From NCBI RefSeq assembly GCF_900115975.1, contig NZ_FOYM01000036.1, positions 1 to 35,103 on the forward strand: DNA of 35,103 bases. The letters run 5' to 3'. The notes under the pieces were generated by a model. It saw only the letters and a program-made list of their open reading frames with translations, did not search any database and was not told the DNA's origin. Source of the DNA: Desulfoscipio geothermicus DSM 3669 (lineage in GTDB: Bacteria; Bacillota; Desulfotomaculia; Desulfotomaculales; Desulfallaceae). The position numbers were made by a program, and so were the translations under genes. This document shows, in pieces, positions 3,863 through 24,256 of this stretch; positions within the stretch are counted from its first letter, which is position 1; the number at the start of each line of letters is the position of its first letter.

Positions 3863-5329
3863 TCACCTCAACTCCCCGCGTAGTACCGGTATCAATTGGG
3901 GACATTCCTCCGACCCAAAAGCTTGACCCATTAGAGAGGTGTGTCCCCTTTCCTCTATACCGGTGTTCCGGTAAAACTTCCGGTACATGGCGGCGCGGTA
4001 GTTTTTATGCTTGTATTCCAACAAAGTGTTGGTGATCCGGTCCAGGAACATGGTGGTGCCGGTATACCCCACCGAGAGCAGCCGCTGGCCGCCCACCCGG
4101 TCGTGGATGGGAAAGCCCATCCTGGCCAGGGGTATGCCTTCCTTTTCAGTCAGGTATTTGCCGTCGGAATGGCCGATGGCAATGTTTACCCCGGTTTCCC
4201 TGCATGTTGTCCTGATTTGGGCAAAATCGGTCTCGTTATGAAATCGCACCTCTCCGGGGCAATCCGCCAGCACGGGTTCCAGCAGATCTTCCAGCCCGGT
4301 GTTCCCGCTGCCGGTGGCCACAACCGCCGGGTACAGTCCGTTTTCCGCACAGGTCCGCACCACGGCGTACACCAGTTCGGGATCCCCGAACACGGCTCCC
4401 CGGCCCTGGGCGTTGTACTTGTGGGAATCCACCATGCAGTCCAGTAAACGGCCCCGTTCCAGTTCCAGCGTTTTGGGCACGCTGCCGCCGGCAAGGCCCG
4501 CCAACAGGCCCACAAACATATCGGTGGCCTCCACGCCCATGGGCACGGGCAGGTTATACAGCGGCACCCCGAATTGCGATTGCAGGTAACGACCCGGCGA
4601 AACATTTTCCTCTACCGTTATGCCGAATTGGATGGTGGCCGCGGCCCCAGGCATGCGCCGGATGGCCTCCACCTTCGTGCCGCCGGGCGGAATCTTGGTA
4701 TATGGCCGGGCAATGGGCCGGTCCAGGGTTTCCGAAATGTCGGGCAGCAGGGTATATTTGATATCCATTAGTTCCAGGATACGCTTGATTTCCCGGATAT
4801 CGGCGGGGCTCAGGTTCGGTACAATAACGTTGATCCCGTCGTGTTTTTCCGTGGGCCGGGCCAGCGCGACGACAGTCTTTTTCACTGCCAGCCAGTAACC
4901 CTCGCTGTGGGTGCCCCCGTAACCGGGGGTGGAAACCGCCACCAGGGGAAAATCATCCAGGCCCCGCTGTTTCAGGTAGTCCCGGGCAATGCCCTCCACG
5001 TCCTCGCCGATGGTTTCCGCCAGGCAGGAGGTAAGAATGCCGATCAACCGAGGTTTATATACCTTGCGGATGTTATCCAGGGCCTGAAACAGGTTTTGCG
5101 AACCGCCGTAAATAGTACCCTTTTCGTTCAGGGAGGAAGACCCCACGTCAATGGGCTCGTTATAGTGCTCGGCGATGTGCCGCCGCATGTAAGTACTGCA
5201 GCCCTGGGAACCGTGGATGATCACCATGGCGTCCTCGATGCCCTTAAAAGGCAGGATCCCGCCCATGGGCATGCACATGTTGCAGGGGTTCTCGTTAACG
5301 TTCCGGTAGTGCTTTGTTTCCCGCGGCAT
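3863..5329 (-). CDS. nifN: FeMo-cofactor scaffold subunit NifN
   Basis: NifN pairs with NifE as the scaffold on which the NifB product is matured. Early motifs are NPCNMCMPMGG, GIEDAMVIIHGSQGCSTYMRRH and LTSCLAETIGEDVEGI, the NifK/NifN pattern with conserved cysteines. The start at 5329 has GGGAGGT seven bases upstream and overlaps the end of nifE by about 35 bases, implying translational coupling; the frame is open upstream to 5401 but without support. At 488 residues it is long. After NYRAAMYRKFYR the last 30 or so residues are encoded by a GGGGACA-type repeat (3896-3955), so this tail is probably not native NifN sequence. Confidence 0.9.
   Translation of the reverse strand: MPRETKHYRNVNENPCNMCMPMGGILPFKGIEDAMVIIHGSQGCSTYMRRHIAEHYNEPIDVGSSSLNEKGTIYGGSQNLFQALDNIRKVYKPRLIGILTSCLAETIGEDVEGIARDYLKQRGLDDFPLVAVSTPGYGGTHSEGYWLAVKKTVVALARPTEKHDGINVIVPNLSPADIREIKRILELMDIKYTLLPDISETLDRPIARPYTKIPPGGTKVEAIRRMPGAAATIQFGITVEENVSPGRYLQSQFGVPLYNLPVPMGVEATDMFVGLLAGLAGGSVPKTLELERGRLLDCMVDSHKYNAQGRGAVFGDPELVYAVVRTCAENGLYPAVVATGSGNTGLEDLLEPVLADCPGEVRFHNETDFAQIRTTCRETGVNIAIGHSDGKYLTEKEGIPLARMGFPIHDRVGGQRLLSVGYTGTTMFLDRITNTLLEYKHKNYRAAMYRKFYRNTGIEERGHTSLMGQAFGSEECPQLIPVLRGELR
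3896..3955 (-). repeat. GGGGACA-type repeat inside the end of nifN
   Basis: On the minus strand this reads AAAGGGGACACACCT, then GGGTCGGAGGAATGTCCCC. Both halves recur in the nifI1-nifI2 spacer (10440-10574), and AAAGGGAACACACCT recurs in the nifI2-nifD spacer (9901-10042). Here the element is translated as part of the NifN C-terminus. Confidence 0.75.
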
Positions 5330-9881: not shown

Positions 9882-9900
9882 ATTAACCGCCCCCTTTAAT

Positions 9901-10042
9901 CATTTGGGGATATTCCTGTCCCCAAAGCCTTGACACATAAGCAAAGGTGTGTTCCCTTTCCGCTGATGGTGTGTCCCCTGTTCAATCGGGGACATTCCTG
10001 TCCCCAGAGGAATACCCCAGCTTCAGCAGGTGTGTCCCCATA
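9901..10042 (-). repeat. GGGGACA-type repeats in the nifI2-nifD spacer
   Basis: On the minus strand the spacer reads GGGGACACACCTGCTGAAGC, GGGTATTCCTCTGGGGACAG, ATGTCCCCGATTG, then further GGGGACACACC and GGGGACAGGAATATCCCC units. The first part is nearly identical to the nifI1-nifI2 spacer. The units are short palindromes that can fold into hairpins. They have no U-tracts, so they should not stop transcription of the downstream nifDK. Confidence 0.8.
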
Positions 10043-10044
10043 CC

Positions 10045-10425
10045 TTAAACTGCCGCCTCGCCCCGCTCGCCGGTCCTTAGCCGGACGGCGTCCAGAACGG
10101 GGCAAATGAATATCTTGCCGTCACCCTTATTGCCTTCCTTGTTTACGCTGATGATGGTATTAACAACTTTATCAATCTCGTTGTCCTGGACCAGAATGGT
10201 GAGCATGCGCTTGGGGATCAGCCGGCTGCCCTGGGACAAGCTTTCGGTAACGATACCGGCTATTTCCTCGCTGGCGCCCATCTCATGCAGTACTGACAGG
10301 TCCACGTGAATCTTGCCCCGGCCCAACACTTTCATGGCATGCAGGCCGCAGACCCCGATATCGGCCAGAGCTTTTTTGGTGGCATTGACTTTGTTCATCC
10401 GAATAATAGCGATAATTTCCTTCAT
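10045..10425 (-). CDS. nifI2: P-II-like nitrogenase regulator NifI2
   Basis: NifI2 and NifI1 together bind and inhibit dinitrogenase when ammonium is added and release it when 2-oxoglutarate rises, as shown in methanogens. The 126-residue product begins MKEIIAIIRMNKVNATKKAL, has the P-II fold ending GDGKIFICPVLDAVRLRTGE, and has a modified T-loop region (DLSVLHEMGASEEIAG) that lacks the uridylylated tyrosine context of GlnB. Its position between nifH and nifD is diagnostic. AAGGAGG precedes the ATG. Confidence 0.93.
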   Translation of the reverse strand: MKEIIAIIRMNKVNATKKALADIGVCGLHAMKVLGRGKIHVDLSVLHEMGASEEIAGIVTESLSQGSRLIPKRMLTILVQDNEIDKVVNTIISVNKEGNKGDGKIFICPVLDAVRLRTGERGEAAV

Positions 10426-10439
10426 GGTGGTCCTCCTTT

Positions 10440-10574
10440 TCGACCGTTAATTGGAGACATTCCTCCGACCCCAGAGCCAGGCTCCTATCGGGGACATGCA
10501 TATTGGGGAAATCCATTCGTTGGGTCCTGTCCCCAGAGGAATACCCAAGCTTCAGCAGGTGTGTCCCCTTTCCT
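10440..10574 (-). repeat. GGGGACA-type repeats in the nifI1-nifI2 spacer
   Basis: The minus strand reads AAAGGGGACACACCTGCTG, AAGCTTGGGTATTCCTCTGG, GGACAGG, then GGGGTCGGAGGAATGTCTCC. The first half matches the nifI2-nifD spacer and the last part matches the repeat in the nifN tail, so one element family has inserted at three places in this operon. Confidence 0.8.
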
Positions 10575-10902
10575 ATAACCCCTTGGTGCCGCTGCTGATG
10601 GTGTAAGCCTCTTCAACCGGGGTGACGAAAATTTTGCCGTCACCGAAGGCGCCCTTTTCTCCGGTCTTGGCGTACTTGGAAATGATGCTGATCACGTCTT
10701 CCTTGTCCTTCTCGTCCTGTACCACCAGCATCAACATATCCTTGGGTATCTCGTCGTAAACCACTTCGCCCACTTTCACACCCCGCTGTTTGCCTCGACC
10801 CACCACGTCAATCCTGGTTACCGCGGGAAATCCGGCGCTGTTCAGTTCAGCCAGGATGGTGTTGGTTTTTTCAGGGCGCACAATGGCTCTGATCATAAAC
10901 AT
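10573..10902 (-). CDS. nifI1: P-II-like nitrogenase regulator NifI1
   Basis: At 109 residues this is the first of the two nif-specific P-II proteins. It opens MFMIRAIVRPEKTNTILAEL, contains VVGRGKQRGVKVGEVVYDE in the T-loop region (the NifI1 pattern, without the GlnB YRG tyrosine motif) and ends with GDGKIFVTPVEEAYTI. It acts with NifI2 to switch off nitrogenase in response to ammonium. It follows nifH after a 58-base spacer holding the perfect palindrome AGGGGTCAGACCCCT (10938-10952), with AGGAG before the ATG. The palindrome lacks a U-tract; such hairpins after nifH may stabilise the abundant nifH message (inference). Confidence 0.93.
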   Translation of the reverse strand: MFMIRAIVRPEKTNTILAELNSAGFPAVTRIDVVGRGKQRGVKVGEVVYDEIPKDMLMLVVQDEKDKEDVISIISKYAKTGEKGAFGDGKIFVTPVEEAYTISSGTKGL

Positions 10903-10960: not shown

Positions 10961-11875
<915 letters not shown>

Positions 11876-11909
11876 TCTCAGGTAATAATAACTGGCAACT
11901 CCCCTTATA

Positions 11910-11978
11910 ACAGTACAGCGCCGGCAATGAATTCATGCCGGCACCTTCGCCCTAACCTGACAGATACATCAATGTATC
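11910..11978 (-). promoter_or_regulatory. ANTAR-type antiterminator module 2 of the nifH leader
   Basis: P1 is GATAC[ATTGAT]GTATC (11963-11978) and P2 is GGC[GAAGGT]GCC (11940-11951), overlapping the GCCGGCA...TGCCGGC stem (11920-11942). Unlike the neighbouring modules the stem is followed only by GCUGUACUGUU, a poor U-tract, so termination here may be weak or the site may mainly provide another binding platform. Confidence 0.8.
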
Positions 11979-11992
11979 CAATATTTGTTTTG

Positions 11993-12059
11993 CAAAAATA
12001 AAAACACCGGTAAAATTACCGGCCACTTTGCCATAAAACCTTTGATACCACATCGTATC
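11993..12059 (-). promoter_or_regulatory. ANTAR-type antiterminator module 1 of the nifH leader
   Basis: P1 is GATAC[GATGTG]GTATC (12044-12059), only about 15 bases after the -10 box, and P2 is GGC[AAAGTG]GCC (12021-12032). P2 overlaps GGCCGGTAA, the 5' arm of a terminator with CCGG-rich stem and a U-rich tail (GTTTTTATTTTT). Loop position 1 is a purine and position 4 is G in both hairpins. Confidence 0.88.
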
Positions 12060-12074
12060 TCTTAATTTATATTA

Positions 12075-12103
12075 ATTATAACATACCCTATGTAATAACA
12101 CAA
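12075..12103 (-). promoter_or_regulatory. SigmaA-like promoter of the nifH operon
   Basis: On the minus strand TTGTGT (12098-12103) and a perfect TATAAT (12075-12080) are spaced by 17 bases, placing the transcript start just before module 1 of the leader. I found no -24/-12 sequence of the sigma54 type (TGGCAC-N5-TTGC) in the 12060-12218 region. Control would therefore act after initiation, through the leader. Confidence 0.72.
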
Positions 12104-12218: not shown

Positions 12219-13673
12219 TCAATTGTCTTTGACCATAGATGTATTAGCCGTTTCCAACGTGTTCTTTGCATATTTATGAAGTTTACGTACCACCGTGGGC
12301 TGGCTCACCCCCAGAATACTGGCCGCCTTATATGTACTTCCATACATATCCACGGCATTTTTAATCAACTCAAATTCCAGTTCCGCAACAGCTTCTTTAA
12401 GTGTTTTGAAATTATTAGTTCCCTTTGCGCCGATATTTTTACAGATATAGGCAGGCAGATGTTTAGGAAGAATTAATTTATGTTCCACTGTAATCAACAG
12501 CCTTTCCACCAAGTTAACCAGTTCCCGGACATTTTCCGGCCATTCATAATCAACGAGCAACTCCATTGTTTTGACAGAAAAGCCCTTTTTAAGTTTATAC
12601 ATCTTGTTATAAACCCGAGTGTAATGCTGGATTAAAACCGGTATATCCTCCTTACGCTTGTGCAAAGGCGGTATAGGTATGGTAACTGTACTTAAACTGT
12701 CGTATAAATCCTTTTTAAACTTGCCTTTTCTTATCATTTTTTTAAGATCCTTATTTGATGACGCAATGATGCGAACATTTATATTGTTTTCAGGTTCTGT
12801 TACGCCTGTCCGGACTTTTTCCTGCATCCGGATTACCCCCAGCAATTTTTCCTGCAGGTCTGGAGGAAGATCCGCCACCTCTTTTATAAAAAGTGTTCCT
12901 TCATGGGCCATTTCCCAGAGGCCTTTTTCCCCTCTTGTGCCGTACTTCCGGGAATCAACCGGGTCATAACCAAACAGGATGGGTCTTAAAACTCCGGTAG
13001 GTATAGCCTGGCAATTAATTTTAATAAACGAACCGTTTTGCCTGCCCGACATGTGGATCTGTCTTGCTATGCTCTCCTTTCCCACTCCTGTCTTACCTAA
13101 AATCAGCACATTCGTTTTCACCTGCGAGACTTTGCAAGCGACATCCAAAACATTCTGCATCGCTTTACTTCTGGCCACTATTTGCTCTGCATTCACTTTC
13201 CGACACCTTAATGCGTCAATTTCCTTTTTATACCTTTCCGTCAACCGGCGGGCCAGTTCCAGTTTCGACCTCAGTTCATTTAACTCCGTCAGTTCCTGTA
13301 GATTTGTGACCACCCCCGATATATTCCCCTTATCATCAAAAATGGGAAGGCCTGATACTATAACCTGCTTACCGTTAGCGAAACTTTGCGTTAATGTTAA
13401 GGGCTCTTTTTGCTTTAATACCTCCAGGGCGGCGCTGCGGTCTATAAGCCCTTCCTCCACCAGTTCCCACATATTTTTCCCCATCACCAACCCGGATTTC
13501 AGGCCTGTTATCCTTTCAACGGCCCTATTCACTTTGATTGTTGTCCCTGTTACGTCAGTAATCCAAATACCGTCATGGGAGGATTCGATAACGGTGTCCA
13601 GTTCCCGTTTGATCTGTTGAATGCACCCAAGTTGCTGTGCCAGGGAAATAAACACTTTTAATAAATCCTGCAA
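12219..13673 (-). CDS. Sigma54-activator-like regulator with degenerate AAA+ domain
   Basis: The 484-residue protein has an N-terminal PAS domain (about residues 22-130: IESSHDGIWITDVTGTTIKV, ITGLKSGLVMGKNMWEL), a coiled linker (130-160), an AAA+ domain (165-395) and a C-terminal HTH (447-466, TYKAASILGVSQPTVVRKL). Walker A is intact (GKTGVGKE, 193-200). GAFTGA, which contacts sigma54, aligns with VDSRKY near 239. Walker B reads LFIKEV instead of LFLDEI. FREDLYYRL reads FKKDLYDSL, so both arginine-finger positions are changed. It probably binds nucleotide but cannot remodel sigma54 promoter complexes, so it may act as a TyrR-like DNA-binding regulator. The TTG start has a GGGGGG site. It lies between nifV and the nifH leader. 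Confidence 0.85.
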   Translation of the reverse strand: MQDLLKVFISLAQQLGCIQQIKRELDTVIESSHDGIWITDVTGTTIKVNRAVERITGLKSGLVMGKNMWELVEEGLIDRSAALEVLKQKEPLTLTQSFANGKQVIVSGLPIFDDKGNISGVVTNLQELTELNELRSKLELARRLTERYKKEIDALRCRKVNAEQIVARSKAMQNVLDVACKVSQVKTNVLILGKTGVGKESIARQIHMSGRQNGSFIKINCQAIPTGVLRPILFGYDPVDSRKYGTRGEKGLWEMAHEGTLFIKEVADLPPDLQEKLLGVIRMQEKVRTGVTEPENNINVRIIASSNKDLKKMIRKGKFKKDLYDSLSTVTIPIPPLHKRKEDIPVLIQHYTRVYNKMYKLKKGFSVKTMELLVDYEWPENVRELVNLVERLLITVEHKLILPKHLPAYICKNIGAKGTNNFKTLKEAVAELEFELIKNAVDMYGSTYKAASILGVSQPTVVRKLHKYAKNTLETANTSMVKDN

Positions 13674-13767: not shown

Positions 13768-13834
13768 ATAAAAAAGAGCCACTGGTTTTCTTCTTCCTGT
13801 AGCGGCCCCTTCGCCCTATGTCCAACGCTGGACA
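13768..13834 (-). promoter_or_regulatory. ANTAR-type antiterminator module before the regulator gene
   Basis: P1 is TGTCC[AGCGTT]GGACA (13819-13834), a stem sequence unlike the common GATAC/GTATC but with the same loop rule. P2 is GGC[GAAGGG]GCC (13804-13815). P2 overlaps the terminator arm GCCGCT, which pairs imperfectly with AGTGGC before TCTTTTTT. The different stem with conserved loop positions 1 and 4 argues for RNA-structure recognition rather than a DNA operator. Confidence 0.85.
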
Positions 13835-13905: not shown

Positions 13906-14808
13906 CTATAACTGAAATGGGTGTGCCGGGTAATTAACCTTTTTACGATTTTTTTGCTTGACTGGTATGTTGTAACCAGGCCGGCTTGCCGCCCTGGCCA
14001 CGTATCTGCTCAGTGATTCTAGCACGCGTGATTTAAACCTGCCCGGAGAATGGAAACCACTCCAAAACAACCCCAGCATATCCTCCAGACTGGCGTTACC
14101 GGCCCGTTCCCCCAACCCCCCTACAGTGGTACTGATGTAAGCTGCGCCGGCCCCAAAAGCTGCCAGGCTGTTAGCCGTTGCCAGTCCGAAATCATTATGA
14201 CCGTGAAACTCCACCGGAATAGACAGGTTACTTACCAGCAACCCTACCTGCCTCCTGGTGGCGAAGGGTTCAAGGATACCCACCGTATCAGCATAACGCA
14301 GCCTCTCCACACCAGCTTCCTGCGCCAGCAAGGCAAACTCAAGCAAAAAGTTAAAATCTGCCCGGGAAGCATCCTCGGCCCCCACAGACACCCGGCACCC
14401 GTAATCGCGGGCATAACGTACGGCCCTCACCAGGCAATCCAACACCCATTGCCTGCTTTTTCCTAGTTTTTTCGTAATATGCAAATCTGAAACAGGGGCG
14501 GATATGTGCAGGTCCCGAACGCCACAGGCTATTGAGACCCTGATGTCGGCCAGAAGCAACCGGTTCCAGGACGCAACCCTGGCCCTGAGACCGAGGCTGC
14601 AAATAGCCCGGAGCGTTTCCTGCTCTATTTCTCCCATTACGGGAATCCCGGCCTCTATCACTTCTACTCCCAGCAGATCAAGCATTCTGGCAATGGTAAC
14701 TTTCTCTTTCAAAGTGAACGCCACACCCGGAGCCTGTTCCCCATCCCTTAAGGTCGTATCCACTATGGCCGGGCAGCGCAACGCCAGTGTTTTCGTGTTT
14801 GCCGCCAT
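13906..14808 (-). CDS. nifV: Homocitrate synthase NifV, short form
   Basis: NifV condenses acetyl-CoA with 2-oxoglutarate to give homocitrate, the organic ligand of FeMo-co. The TIM-barrel motifs are clear: DTTLRDGEQAPGVAF near residue 17, HISAPVSDLHITKKLGKSR, RYADTVGILEP and the metal-binding EFHGHNDFGLATANSLAA, then GLGERAGNASLED. It stops at 300 residues, shortly after the barrel, whereas most NifV proteins run to about 370-380 with a further C-terminal helical region. Clostridium pasteurianum is known for a split NifV (alpha and omega), but no second part is seen here. It follows the P-II gene and has its own antiterminator module. Confidence 0.88.
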   Translation of the reverse strand: MAANTKTLALRCPAIVDTTLRDGEQAPGVAFTLKEKVTIARMLDLLGVEVIEAGIPVMGEIEQETLRAICSLGLRARVASWNRLLLADIRVSIACGVRDLHISAPVSDLHITKKLGKSRQWVLDCLVRAVRYARDYGCRVSVGAEDASRADFNFLLEFALLAQEAGVERLRYADTVGILEPFATRRQVGLLVSNLSIPVEFHGHNDFGLATANSLAAFGAGAAYISTTVGGLGERAGNASLEDMLGLFWSGFHSPGRFKSRVLESLSRYVARAASRPGYNIPVKQKNRKKVNYPAHPFQL

Positions 14809-16834: not shown

Positions 16835-16900
16835 AAGAAAAGTCCCGACACCTCGAAGGTGTAAGGACTTCTTCATCCGGGCTTGATACAACAATGTATC
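16835..16900 (-). promoter_or_regulatory. ANTAR-type antiterminator module before amtB-1
   Basis: P1 is GATAC[ATTGTT]GTATC (16885-16900) and P2 is GGAT[GAAGAA]GTCC (16865-16878). The P2 3' strand is part of the terminator stem AAGTCC...GGACTT, with ACACC/GGTGT at its tip and a UUUUCUU tail (16835-16873). P1 starts only 20 bases after the glnA stop and no promoter is visible between, so the module gates read-through from glnA into amtB. Confidence 0.9.
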
Positions 16901-16919
16901 GTTTAACATTAATTTAAAA

Positions 16920-18357: not shown

Positions 18358-18433
18358 AAAATTAAAAACCCGCAAACAGATTTCGTTTAAACCTGTTTGC
18401 GGGCATCATTGCCTTTAATACAACGTTGTATTA
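18358..18433 (-). promoter_or_regulatory. ANTAR-type antiterminator module 1 of the glnA leader
   Basis: P1 is TAATAC[AACGTT]GTATTA (18416-18433) and P2 is GGC[AATGAT]GCC (18402-18413). P2 overlaps CCCGCAAACAG, the arm of a strong terminator CCCGCAAACAG/CTGTTTGCGGG with a TTTTTAATTTT tail (18364-18403). This is one of the cleanest copies. Confidence 0.92.
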
Positions 18434-18573: not shown

Positions 18574-18825
18574 CTCTGGTGGGCCTGGGCGTGCTGGCGG
18601 ACGTGCCCAAGGTAATGGTGTACGAGCTGGCCAAGTACATCAACCGGGAAAAGGAAATCATCCCCCGCAGCGTGATCACCAAATCCCCTCGGCGGAACTG
18701 AAGCCGGGTCAAAAAGACGAAGACAGCCTACCCCCCTACCCGGTCTTGGATCAAATCCTCCGGGCTTGCATGGAAGACATCAAATCCATAGCCGCTATGG
18801 GGTACAGCAGAAAGCGAGTCGCAAC
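18574..18825 (+). pseudogene. nadE: Remnant of NAD+ synthetase (nadE), C-terminal part
   Basis: Read over two frames, this encodes [32 protein letters not shown], then [18 protein letters not shown] and [13 protein letters not shown]...IAAMGYS, the C-terminal part of NadE (NAD synthesis from deamido-NAD). There is a frameshift near 18585 and another near 18688, and both the N-terminal ATP-binding region and the C-terminus are missing. It lies on the plus strand between the glnA and chemoreceptor promoters. The rest of the gap (to about 18970) shows no gene. Confidence 0.85.
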
Positions 18826-18971
18826 CCGGAAATTAACACGAAACCCCCAATGCAGACTTTTTCAGGGGGAACTAACTACGTTGATCAATTCCTTGGCTAT
18901 ACGAAACGCTTCCGGCCGAGAGGCATATAACCCCAAGCGATTTAAATCTGTTAAATTTATCTAAATTTTTA

Positions 18972-19001
18972 TTGACAAAAAATAATAACTTGCAATATAA
19001 T
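18972..19001 (+). promoter_or_regulatory. SigmaA-like promoter of the chemoreceptor-like gene
   Basis: A perfect TTGACA (18972-18977) and a perfect TATAAT (18996-19001) are separated by 18 bases. The first antiterminator hairpin begins about 20 bases downstream. This is the strongest promoter in the window by consensus match. Confidence 0.82.
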
Positions 19002-19020
19002 TTGACCGAAACACCCAATA

Positions 19021-19088
19021 AATACACTGGTGTATCAATAAAGCAAAGAAGCTGTCTGATACCGTTTTTCAGACAGCTTTGTTTTTTT
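19021..19088 (+). promoter_or_regulatory. ANTAR-type antiterminator module before the chemoreceptor-like gene
   Basis: P1 is AATAC[ACTGGT]GTATC (19021-19036; the outermost pair is A-C, so four pairs form) and P2 is AGC[AAAGAA]GCT (19042-19053). P2 overlaps the terminator AGCTGTCTGA/TCAGACAGCT followed by TTGTTTTTTT (19050-19088). It is the only module on the plus strand. Confidence 0.9.
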
Positions 19089-19115
19089 ATTTTGCATTTA
19101 GAAGGTGATTCTTTC

Positions 19116-20501
19116 ATGGCAATGGCAGAAATAATTTACGGCGCAATCCTATCCGTAGCGGTAGGCTATTTTACTTATCGCTTTGTTAAAAACAGATTCT
19201 TTTATTACATGAATAACCTAAATAAAGAAATATCCGACTGGCAACAGGTTACATTACCTCCTACCGAGCGAAGCGAATCAACGAGAATTTTTCCCATTGG
19301 CGACAAAGTCTTTGAATTAATAAACAAAGCCAGAATTTTGACCCAGGAGATACATCTAACCTCCCAGCAAGTGCGAGCCGCCTCCAACCAGGTGGAAGCA
19401 TCAGCCCGTTCAGCCATGGACATTGATACGGCCATTGACCGTATGCAAAACACAGCTGCCGGAATGCAACAGACCAGTATAGCATTGGAACAGGACTTTG
19501 ATGCCAGTCAATCAGCTACACAGGAAATAGACACCGCCATAAAACAAATCCAAGATTCGGTCAGTAAAATATCCGACAACACCAACACATTAAAAAACCA
19601 AACCACCACATTACAAACCGCTGTTGATCAAGTAAAGTTAATTGCGCAAAACATCAATGAAATTTCCGATCAAACCAAGCTATTGGCCTTAAACGCCGCC
19701 ATTGAGGCAGCCCGGGCCGGGGAACACGGCAAAGGGTTCACGGTGGTAGCCGAGGAAATCGGCAAATTGTCCGATCGCACCGCCGCCGCGGTGCAGCAGG
19801 CTTTTGGCATATTGGAAGACATGAAAGGCAACGTTGGCATGGTGATTAACAATATAACGGAAAGTATTAATTCTTCCAGTACAGCCACCGGACAAGTGAA
19901 ACATATCGAAACTGTATTAACCCACAGCTTCGATTTAATTCAACGAGCAAACAACACCGCCCGGGAGACCTTTTACGAGGTTAACGGCAGCCTGCAGCAA
20001 ATGGCTGCCACATTACAGTCCTGTCGCAAAGAACTGGAACCAATTATCCATACGGGCACACTTATGCAAAGCCTGTCCGATAAATTGGAGCAAACCGCAA
20101 AGCAAAACCGGATTCATTACGTGCTGGAAGCCCAGGTTACATCACAGGTGGAAACTATAAAATCTTTATTGGCCCGGGCCTCCGAAAAAGACTGCATTGC
20201 CACTCTTGATACCGCCCAGCATAAGGAAACACTGACACGGTTAAAAAAGGAAAACCCCGGCATTGAGGCCATTTGGTCCAACGATGCAACGGGCCATTTT
20301 TTGTACTCCGAGCCACCTGCCGCCCTGGCTAACGGCAAAGTGCGGGAATGGTGGCAAAGGGCCGTTGCAGGTGAAATATTTGTTTCTCCCGTTTACATAT
20401 CCGCCATCACCAGACAGCCCTGCCTGACAGTATCAGTCCCCATTATTCGTGACGGCATAGTATGCGGTGTTTTGGGCGCCGATTTAAGAGCTTTAAACTA
20501 A
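19116..20501 (+). CDS. Methyl-accepting-chemotaxis-type receptor with C-terminal Cache-like sensor
   Basis: The 461-residue protein has one N-terminal membrane helix (about residues 5-24), a long coiled coil with the MCP signalling tip ([17 protein letters not shown], 192-208, followed by [13 protein letters not shown]) and, after the signalling hairpin, a C-terminal domain (about 345-461) resembling a PDC/Cache fold: [57 protein letters not shown]. With one membrane helix the sensor would be cytoplasmic. The order membrane-signalling-sensor is the reverse of classical receptors. The start at 19116 has GAAGGTGATT upstream. It is led by a promoter and an antiterminator module shared with the nitrogen genes, so its signal is probably linked to nitrogen status (inference). 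Confidence 0.88.
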
Positions 20502-23734: not shown

Positions 23735-23803
23735 AACAAAACAAGGGCGCCCGCGGTTTCAACCGCCGTGAGCACCCTTGCCCTGTACCCCAACCCTGGG
23801 ATA
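23735..23803 (-). promoter_or_regulatory. ANTAR-type antiterminator module before amtB-2
   Basis: P1 is TATCCC[AGGGTT]GGGGTA (23786-23803), a six-pair stem with one G-U, and P2 is GGGC[AAGGGT]GCTC (23770-23783). P2 overlaps the terminator AAGGGTGCTC...GGGCGCCCTT with a UGUUUUGUUUUUU tail (23735-23779). It starts just after the stop codon of the preceding P-II gene. Confidence 0.87.
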
Positions 23804-24174: not shown

Positions 24175-24247
24175 AAAAAAGCCCTAATCCGCACACCACA
24201 CGGCATAAGGGCCCTCTTTGGCCAATAACTTGATACATCTTCGTATC
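24175..24247 (-). promoter_or_regulatory. ANTAR-type antiterminator module before P-II copy 2
   Basis: P1 is GATAC[GAAGAT]GTATC (24232-24247) and P2 is GGCC[AAAGAG]GGCC (24210-24223). P2 overlaps the terminator GCCCTTATGCCG...GGATTAGGGC with a TTTTTT tail (24175-24212). Confidence 0.9.
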
Positions 24248-24256
24248 ACTTGTTAT

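Follow-up and report, generated by a model that had tools for sequence, protein, structure and literature searches.

A nif-linked regulator of Desulfoscipio geothermicus without its sigma54-remodelling motifs: a probable DNA-binding co-regulator in a nitrogen locus probably under ANTAR control

TyrR is a protein of the enhancer-binding type that lacks GAFTGA and acts at sigma70 promoters. Other GAFTGA-less enhancer-binding proteins are known at such promoters, including NtrC of Rhodobacter capsulatus, NtrC of Caulobacter and VpsR of Vibrio cholerae; these combine AAA+ and HTH domains of that type without the sigma54 contact loop, and two of them are nitrogen-related (PMC10274813). A second group of described systems comprises the ANTAR target RNAs (of the EutV, NasR and AmiR type), whose two short hexaloop hairpins have an A at loop position 1 and a G at position 4, with the second hairpin, P2, overlapping a terminator (PMC3369931). 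According to the predictions of Ramesh et al. 2012, ANTAR antiterminators stand before genes for nitrogenase, P-II proteins, ammonium transporters and glutamine synthetase, with at least 13 predicted in Desulfotomaculum acetoxidans (PMC3369931). Nitrogenase control in anaerobic Bacillota is poorly known, and the regulator described here would show, in nature, an AAA+ activator reduced to DNA binding, its paralog and ortholog being available for comparison. Both this reduction and the proposed control by sigmaA and ANTAR antitermination are open to standard methods.

The window, i.e., the whole stretch of 35,103 nucleotides of D. geothermicus DSM 3669 that was analysed, carries at 12219..13673 on the minus strand a gene for a degenerate PAS-AAA+-HTH regulator of 484 aa with a TTG start, as delimited by its reading frame, Pfam and alignment. 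All three domains originally predicted for it are recovered by Pfam (PAS_9 at residues 34–130, Sigma54_activat at 165–332, AAA_lid_14 at 339–413 and HTH_50 at 423–468). The PAS domain spans residues about 18–131 (13281..13622, minus strand, converted from the residue positions of the PAS_9/PAS matches), the Sigma54_activat (PF00158) AAA+ domain scores 145 bits, and the HTH domain, delimited by alignment, occupies residues 420–470 (12264..12416, minus strand). The start, TTG-CAG/CAA-GA(T/C) behind a G-rich Shine-Dalgarno-like stretch, is common to the two degenerate relatives considered below.

Alignment with intact enhancer-binding proteins bears out the prediction that the parts needed for sigma54 remodelling have been lost from this protein. 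At the GAFTGA position in the L1 loop stands VDSRKY (residues 239–244; 12942..12959, minus strand), with equal spacing and other residues, the window regulator reading FGYDPVDSRKYG against the FGYEKGAFTGAQ of the same length in intact relatives. Walker B is TLFIKE (residues 260–265; 12879..12896, minus strand), i.e., LFIKE vs LFLDE, with the Asp changed to Lys and the Glu retained, and FREDLYYRL is replaced by FKKDLYDSL (residues 319–327; 12693..12719, minus strand), with both arginine-finger positions lost. Walker A is intact, as had been claimed, in the form GKTGVGKE (residues 193–200; 13074..13097, minus strand) vs GESGVGKE in the intact relatives, and the sensor II NVREL and the switch Asn are retained as well. 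Without GAFTGA, the Asp of Walker B or the arginine fingers, the regulator would be unable to remodel the sigma54 holoenzyme, and the loss of the latter two makes it probable that its ATP hydrolysis is poor or nil. The retention of Walker A and sensor II suggests that it may still bind nucleotide, which along with the PAS domain would provide a conformational signal; Walker A might also be kept for folding instead of sensing. An AlphaFold2 model built from 12 sequences, which says nothing on activity, keeps the AAA+ fold (mean pLDDT 80.9, pTM 0.52) and resembles solved enhancer-binding proteins, e.g., NtrX, ZraR, FleQ and NtrC1, and VpsR is among the PDB sequence matches of the regulator. In lacking GAFTGA while keeping AAA+ and HTH, the window regulator resembles the TyrR/VpsR/R. 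capsulatus NtrC type, from which it differs in having PAS input and no receiver, in the additional loss of the arginine fingers and of the Asp in Walker B, and in being nif-linked, ANTAR-controlled and of an unrelated lineage in Bacillota. The literature searched yielded no nif-linked GAFTGA-less regulators in that phylum.

The same classes of loss recur in a paralog in the same genome (G000), at C40:139845-141263 (59% identical to the window regulator), and in an ortholog from another genus of the family, at G008:C10:40863-42257 (56% identical), which sits between nifV and nifH just as the window gene does. Walker B is LFITE in the paralog and LFIKE in the ortholog, and the arginine-finger segment is FLRDLSKEL and VRKDFCTGL, respectively, such that the second finger is lost in all three degenerate proteins and the first in two of them. 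In both relatives the L1 loop is five residues shorter and without GAFTGA, and the sensor I Asn has become Glu. Losses shared in this manner by paralog and ortholog point to neither a sequence error nor a pseudogene, and the latter possibility was rejected given that the reading frames are intact in all three copies. That the regulator still activates sigma54 promoters by means of unorthodox motifs is scarcely credible: rpoN is intact, and the protein retains Walker A and, in Walker B, the Glu, but all three copies lack GAFTGA, the second arginine finger and the Asp of Walker B, two have a shorter L1 loop, and no -24/-12 site lies near nifH.

In the tree, the trio is monophyletic (support 100/100) among the PAS enhancer-binding proteins of Bacillota, with the window gene as the outgroup to the paralog and the ortholog (100/95); this order is at odds with gene position, and therefore duplication plus loss or replacement happened. 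The degenerate family is defined by three sequences only. Identity among them is 50–64% in AAA+, 70–76% in the lid and 86–92% in the HTH, the reverse of the pattern in the closest intact relatives (G001, G002, G034), with 79–91% in AAA+ and 71–84% in the HTH. The dN(AAA+)/dN(lid+HTH) ratio is 2.6–3.4 in the trio vs 0.6–0.8 in the intact relatives (a rough measure from pairwise counts, with synonymous sites near saturation), and the HTH dN in the trio is 0.04–0.06, again with synonymous sites near saturation. The HTH core is identical at 23/25 positions in the trio, and none of the intact enhancer-binding proteins of this genome that were compared exceeds 15/25. Because domain conservation, dN ratio and HTH-core identity agree, the DNA-binding end is, as far as comparison of these sequences goes, what selection keeps. 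A decaying gene without remaining function might account for the lost catalytic motifs and for the fact that nifH is found in 47 of the 113 genomes of the order (at the threshold used) and the regulator in only two; but three copies with intact frames, strong purifying selection on the HTH and lid, and the ANTAR modules kept before the gene render this very unlikely. The intact relatives themselves are PAS enhancer-binding proteins of roughly 700 aa that adjoin fatty-acid oxidation genes and have an N-terminus that, read by eye, is CBS-like.

The regulator had been taken for a former NifA, and here the original prediction fails. Its likeness to NifA is confined to the AAA+ domain and the nif gene neighbourhood, whereas it differs in the lack of GAFTGA, in a PAS domain in the place of the N-terminal GAF domain, which Pfam does not detect, and in a score of 211.5 bits, mostly from the AAA+ part, with NCBIfam nifA (TIGR01817), whose cut-off is 528.85. 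The best NCBIfam model is instead PrdR, at 312.9 bits, which is also far below its cut-off of 795. The PrdR-type PAS enhancer-binding proteins of Clostridia resemble the window regulator in PAS-AAA+-HTH order and tree neighbourhood; PrdR itself, unlike the window regulator, is a named sigma54-dependent regulator. In view of the nifA score and the position in the tree, a NifA decayed in place was rejected: apparently, a PAS-type enhancer-binding protein was recruited, ceased to work with sigma54 and was brought under the antitermination of the nif genes.

A loss of sigma54 from the genome at large, for which a check of rpoN had been proposed, must likewise be rejected. The gene is present and full length (470 aa), alongside 21 other enhancer-binding proteins that score 231–261 bits with Sigma54_activat vs 147–148 for the two degenerate ones. 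Those full-length members that were read (L020 not in full) show either GAFTGA itself or a form differing in one letter (SAFTGA, GAFTGG), with the FLDE Walker B wherever the motif matched. In such company the regulator could serve as a partner or decoy, assembling into rings together with an intact enhancer-binding protein or blocking its sites, and so tuning sigma54 promoters indirectly. The 21 potential partners and the AAA+ fold that the structural model appears to keep would be in accord with this, and interactions of paralogous enhancer-binding proteins have been reported (PMC9542535). Nevertheless, such a role is unlikely, as the HTH is unlike that of every intact enhancer-binding protein compared in the genome and the AAA+ domain diverges fastest, which ill suits a conserved ring interface.

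The regulator gene lies between a gene for a nifV-like homocitrate synthase of 300 aa (13906..14808, minus strand; best NCBIfam match nifV, at 338.7 bits below the 462.9 cut-off) and nifH (10961..11833, minus strand; NCBIfam nifH above cut-off), the true start of which is likely inside the reading frame. For nifH a sigmaA promoter is presumed, with an extended -10 (TGTTATAAT; 12075..12083, minus strand) and a poor -35 box, TTGTGT. A -24/-12 site was looked for near the window nifH and none was seen, and sigma54 sites with up to two mismatches are not above chance across the window (35 vs 41). The nifH leader contains three ANTAR modules in tandem: the first has an overlapping terminator (12021..12060, minus strand, 33.3 bits), the second is followed by a hairpin without a long U run (11940..11979, minus strand, 31.6 bits), and the third, again with an overlapping terminator, stands just before nifH (11846..11877, minus strand, 35.1 bits).

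That the regulator is itself under an antiterminator module proved to be real: its leader has a covariance-model match from 13835 to 13804 on the minus strand, the two-hairpin element TGTCC[AGCGTT]GGACA ... GGC[GAAGGG]GCC (37.1 bits; a training sequence), and by folding a terminator at 13770..13812 (minus strand), which shares its 5' arm in part with the P2 hairpin and is followed by a U run. Comparable modules precede glnA (18402..18433, minus strand, 40.3 bits, with a promoter TTGATT-16-TATAAT at 18485-18458), glnB2, which amtB2 follows (24211..24248, minus strand, 24.7 bits), amtB1 (16866..16901, minus strand, 21.2 bits, with a terminator) and an MCP gene (19020..19053, plus strand, 22.5 bits). 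The model was trained on 13 modules from this genome and G008, and the last three modules lie outside the training set (the amtB1 module, read by eye earlier, was kept out of it), as do those that the model finds at the ANTAR and glutamine synthetase genes of contig C55. The 13 aligned modules show compensatory changes in helix 1, with 97% of cells paired and 15 changes on both sides vs 4.2 in shuffles; both hairpins have hexaloops, and the loop G4 is invariant in 13/13. In nearly every window leader the 3' side of P2 doubles as the 5' side of the terminator, the second nifH module being the one without a U run. Thus, the window modules match the known ANTAR targets in hairpins, loop G4, terminator overlap and target genes, while loop position 1 may be A or G; they depart from them further in the threefold array before nifH and in their presence before the degenerate regulator and the MCP gene. 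Such modules precede both degenerate regulator genes of this genome and that of G008, and none of the model matches in this genome is near a gene for an intact enhancer-binding protein. No ANTAR family of Rfam matches the window at the gathering cut-off. A single pattern, TAGGGCGAAGGNGCC, was dropped for the two-hairpin model as it has only two occurrences in the genome.

Three ANTAR proteins are encoded in the genome (PF03861 matches), two of them just upstream of glutamine synthetase genes. On contig C55 (L121, G000:C55) two regulators of the REC-ANTAR type occupy such positions, and modules at 2543-2578 and 4816-4851 stand before one ANTAR gene and one glutamine synthetase gene; for this reason, the circuit seems to regulate itself. 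Between glnB2 and amtB2 there is a weaker ANTAR-like module (23771-23803, minus strand, 17.2 bits) that a terminator overlaps and through which amtB2 would be controlled separately. The MCP gene has, in 18972-19116 on the plus strand, a TTGACA-type promoter with TATAAT, its ANTAR module and a terminator, and therefore chemotaxis appears to be linked to nitrogen shortage; the reading frame as listed begins too early, at 18972, the true start probably being the ATG at 19116. In G008 a divergent MCP-like gene has a module at the matching place.

Across the order, ANTAR modules (E<=0.01, sense strand, no more than about 350 bases before the gene) were found at 23 of 29 nifH loci, a set that excludes that of the window and includes that of G008, whose modules helped build the model. 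Among the remainder, L142, L144, L145 and L150 have weaker matches, while L146 and L152 lack a match. Of the 29 loci, one (L143) shows a -24/-12-like site less than 500 bases from nifH, and another (G008) has the degenerate regulator; within the order, the latter was found only in G000 and G008, i.e., 45 of the 47 nifH genomes are without it. In a sample of 398 genomes from the phylum, those of the best other matches that were read proved to be intact enhancer-binding proteins. Given modules at most loci, the near absence of -24/-12 sites and the rarity of the regulator, nif control by sigmaA with ANTAR antitermination, not by NifA with sigma54, appears to be the rule in the order, and the degenerate regulator appears to be a rare addition, or else one lost in the other genomes. 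The earlier view that the nif system here works without sigma54 is supported by the sigmaA-like nifH promoter without a -24/-12 site, but its attribution to the decay of the regulator is not, as the modules are widespread and only G008 shares the regulator. At one locus, L134 (G056), the region some hundreds of bases ahead of nifH encodes another enhancer-binding protein, which looks intact (FGYVEGSFTGA, LFLDE).

The regulator might also be a dedicated nif activator at sigmaA promoters, in series with ANTAR antitermination. Its place between nifV and nifH in two genera and the poor -35 of nifH, which suits an activator, speak for this, as does the NtrC of R. capsulatus, which activates the housekeeping polymerase without GAFTGA (PMC10274813). 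It is nonetheless doubtful, since nearly all nifH genomes of the order do without the regulator, several with the same gene order (nifV is directly upstream of nifH in five family members, G004, G007, G003, G013 and G001), the extended -10 may need no activator, and the search for a shared operator found none: among dyads and k-mers in the upstream regions, only sigmaA -35 boxes rise above shuffles. Upstream of nifH, the string TTAAAGGTTTA is confined to the two loci that have the regulator, a weak sign, as shuffled sequences reach the same sharing.

The favoured reading, with a probability of roughly 0.6, is that of a sigma54-independent, TyrR/VpsR-like DNA-binding co-regulator in a locus where nif expression is most likely driven by sigmaA and ANTAR antitermination. 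As its mRNA, like those of nifH, glnA, amtB, glnB and MCP, carries ANTAR two-hairpin elements, in which P2 would compete with the terminator, the regulator would be made when nitrogen is short. With no sigma54 route, an intact HTH and nif-tied expression, its most likely mode of action would be the binding of one fixed operator by the almost unchanged HTH at sigmaA promoters, as in TyrR, VpsR and the NtrC of R. capsulatus. By this means it may modulate a few nitrogen genes, a repressor or fine-tuner being somewhat likelier than an activator. More tentatively, it may be a catalytically dead enhancer-binding protein turned into a nucleotide- and PAS-gated switch that lays a DNA-level layer over an RNA-antitermination nif circuit, a layer of which no description was found in the literature searched.

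Three other features of the window were noted. A short dispersed repeat (around TCCTGTCCCCAGAGGAATACCC.AGCTTCAGCAGGTGTGTCCCC) lies in gaps between nif genes at 9885-10097 and 10515-10577, and the same repeat also adjoins the paralog on C40. At 18582-18841 (plus strand) lies a frame-shifted remnant of the C-terminal part of a NAD synthetase-like gene, with 58–65% protein identity to its intact counterpart, a neighbour of the paralog on C40, and 82% DNA identity over 158 bases; the remnant and the C40 gene suggest a shared, rearranged nitrogen locus. A group II intron match of Rfam (47.2 bits) is present at 902-990 on the plus strand.
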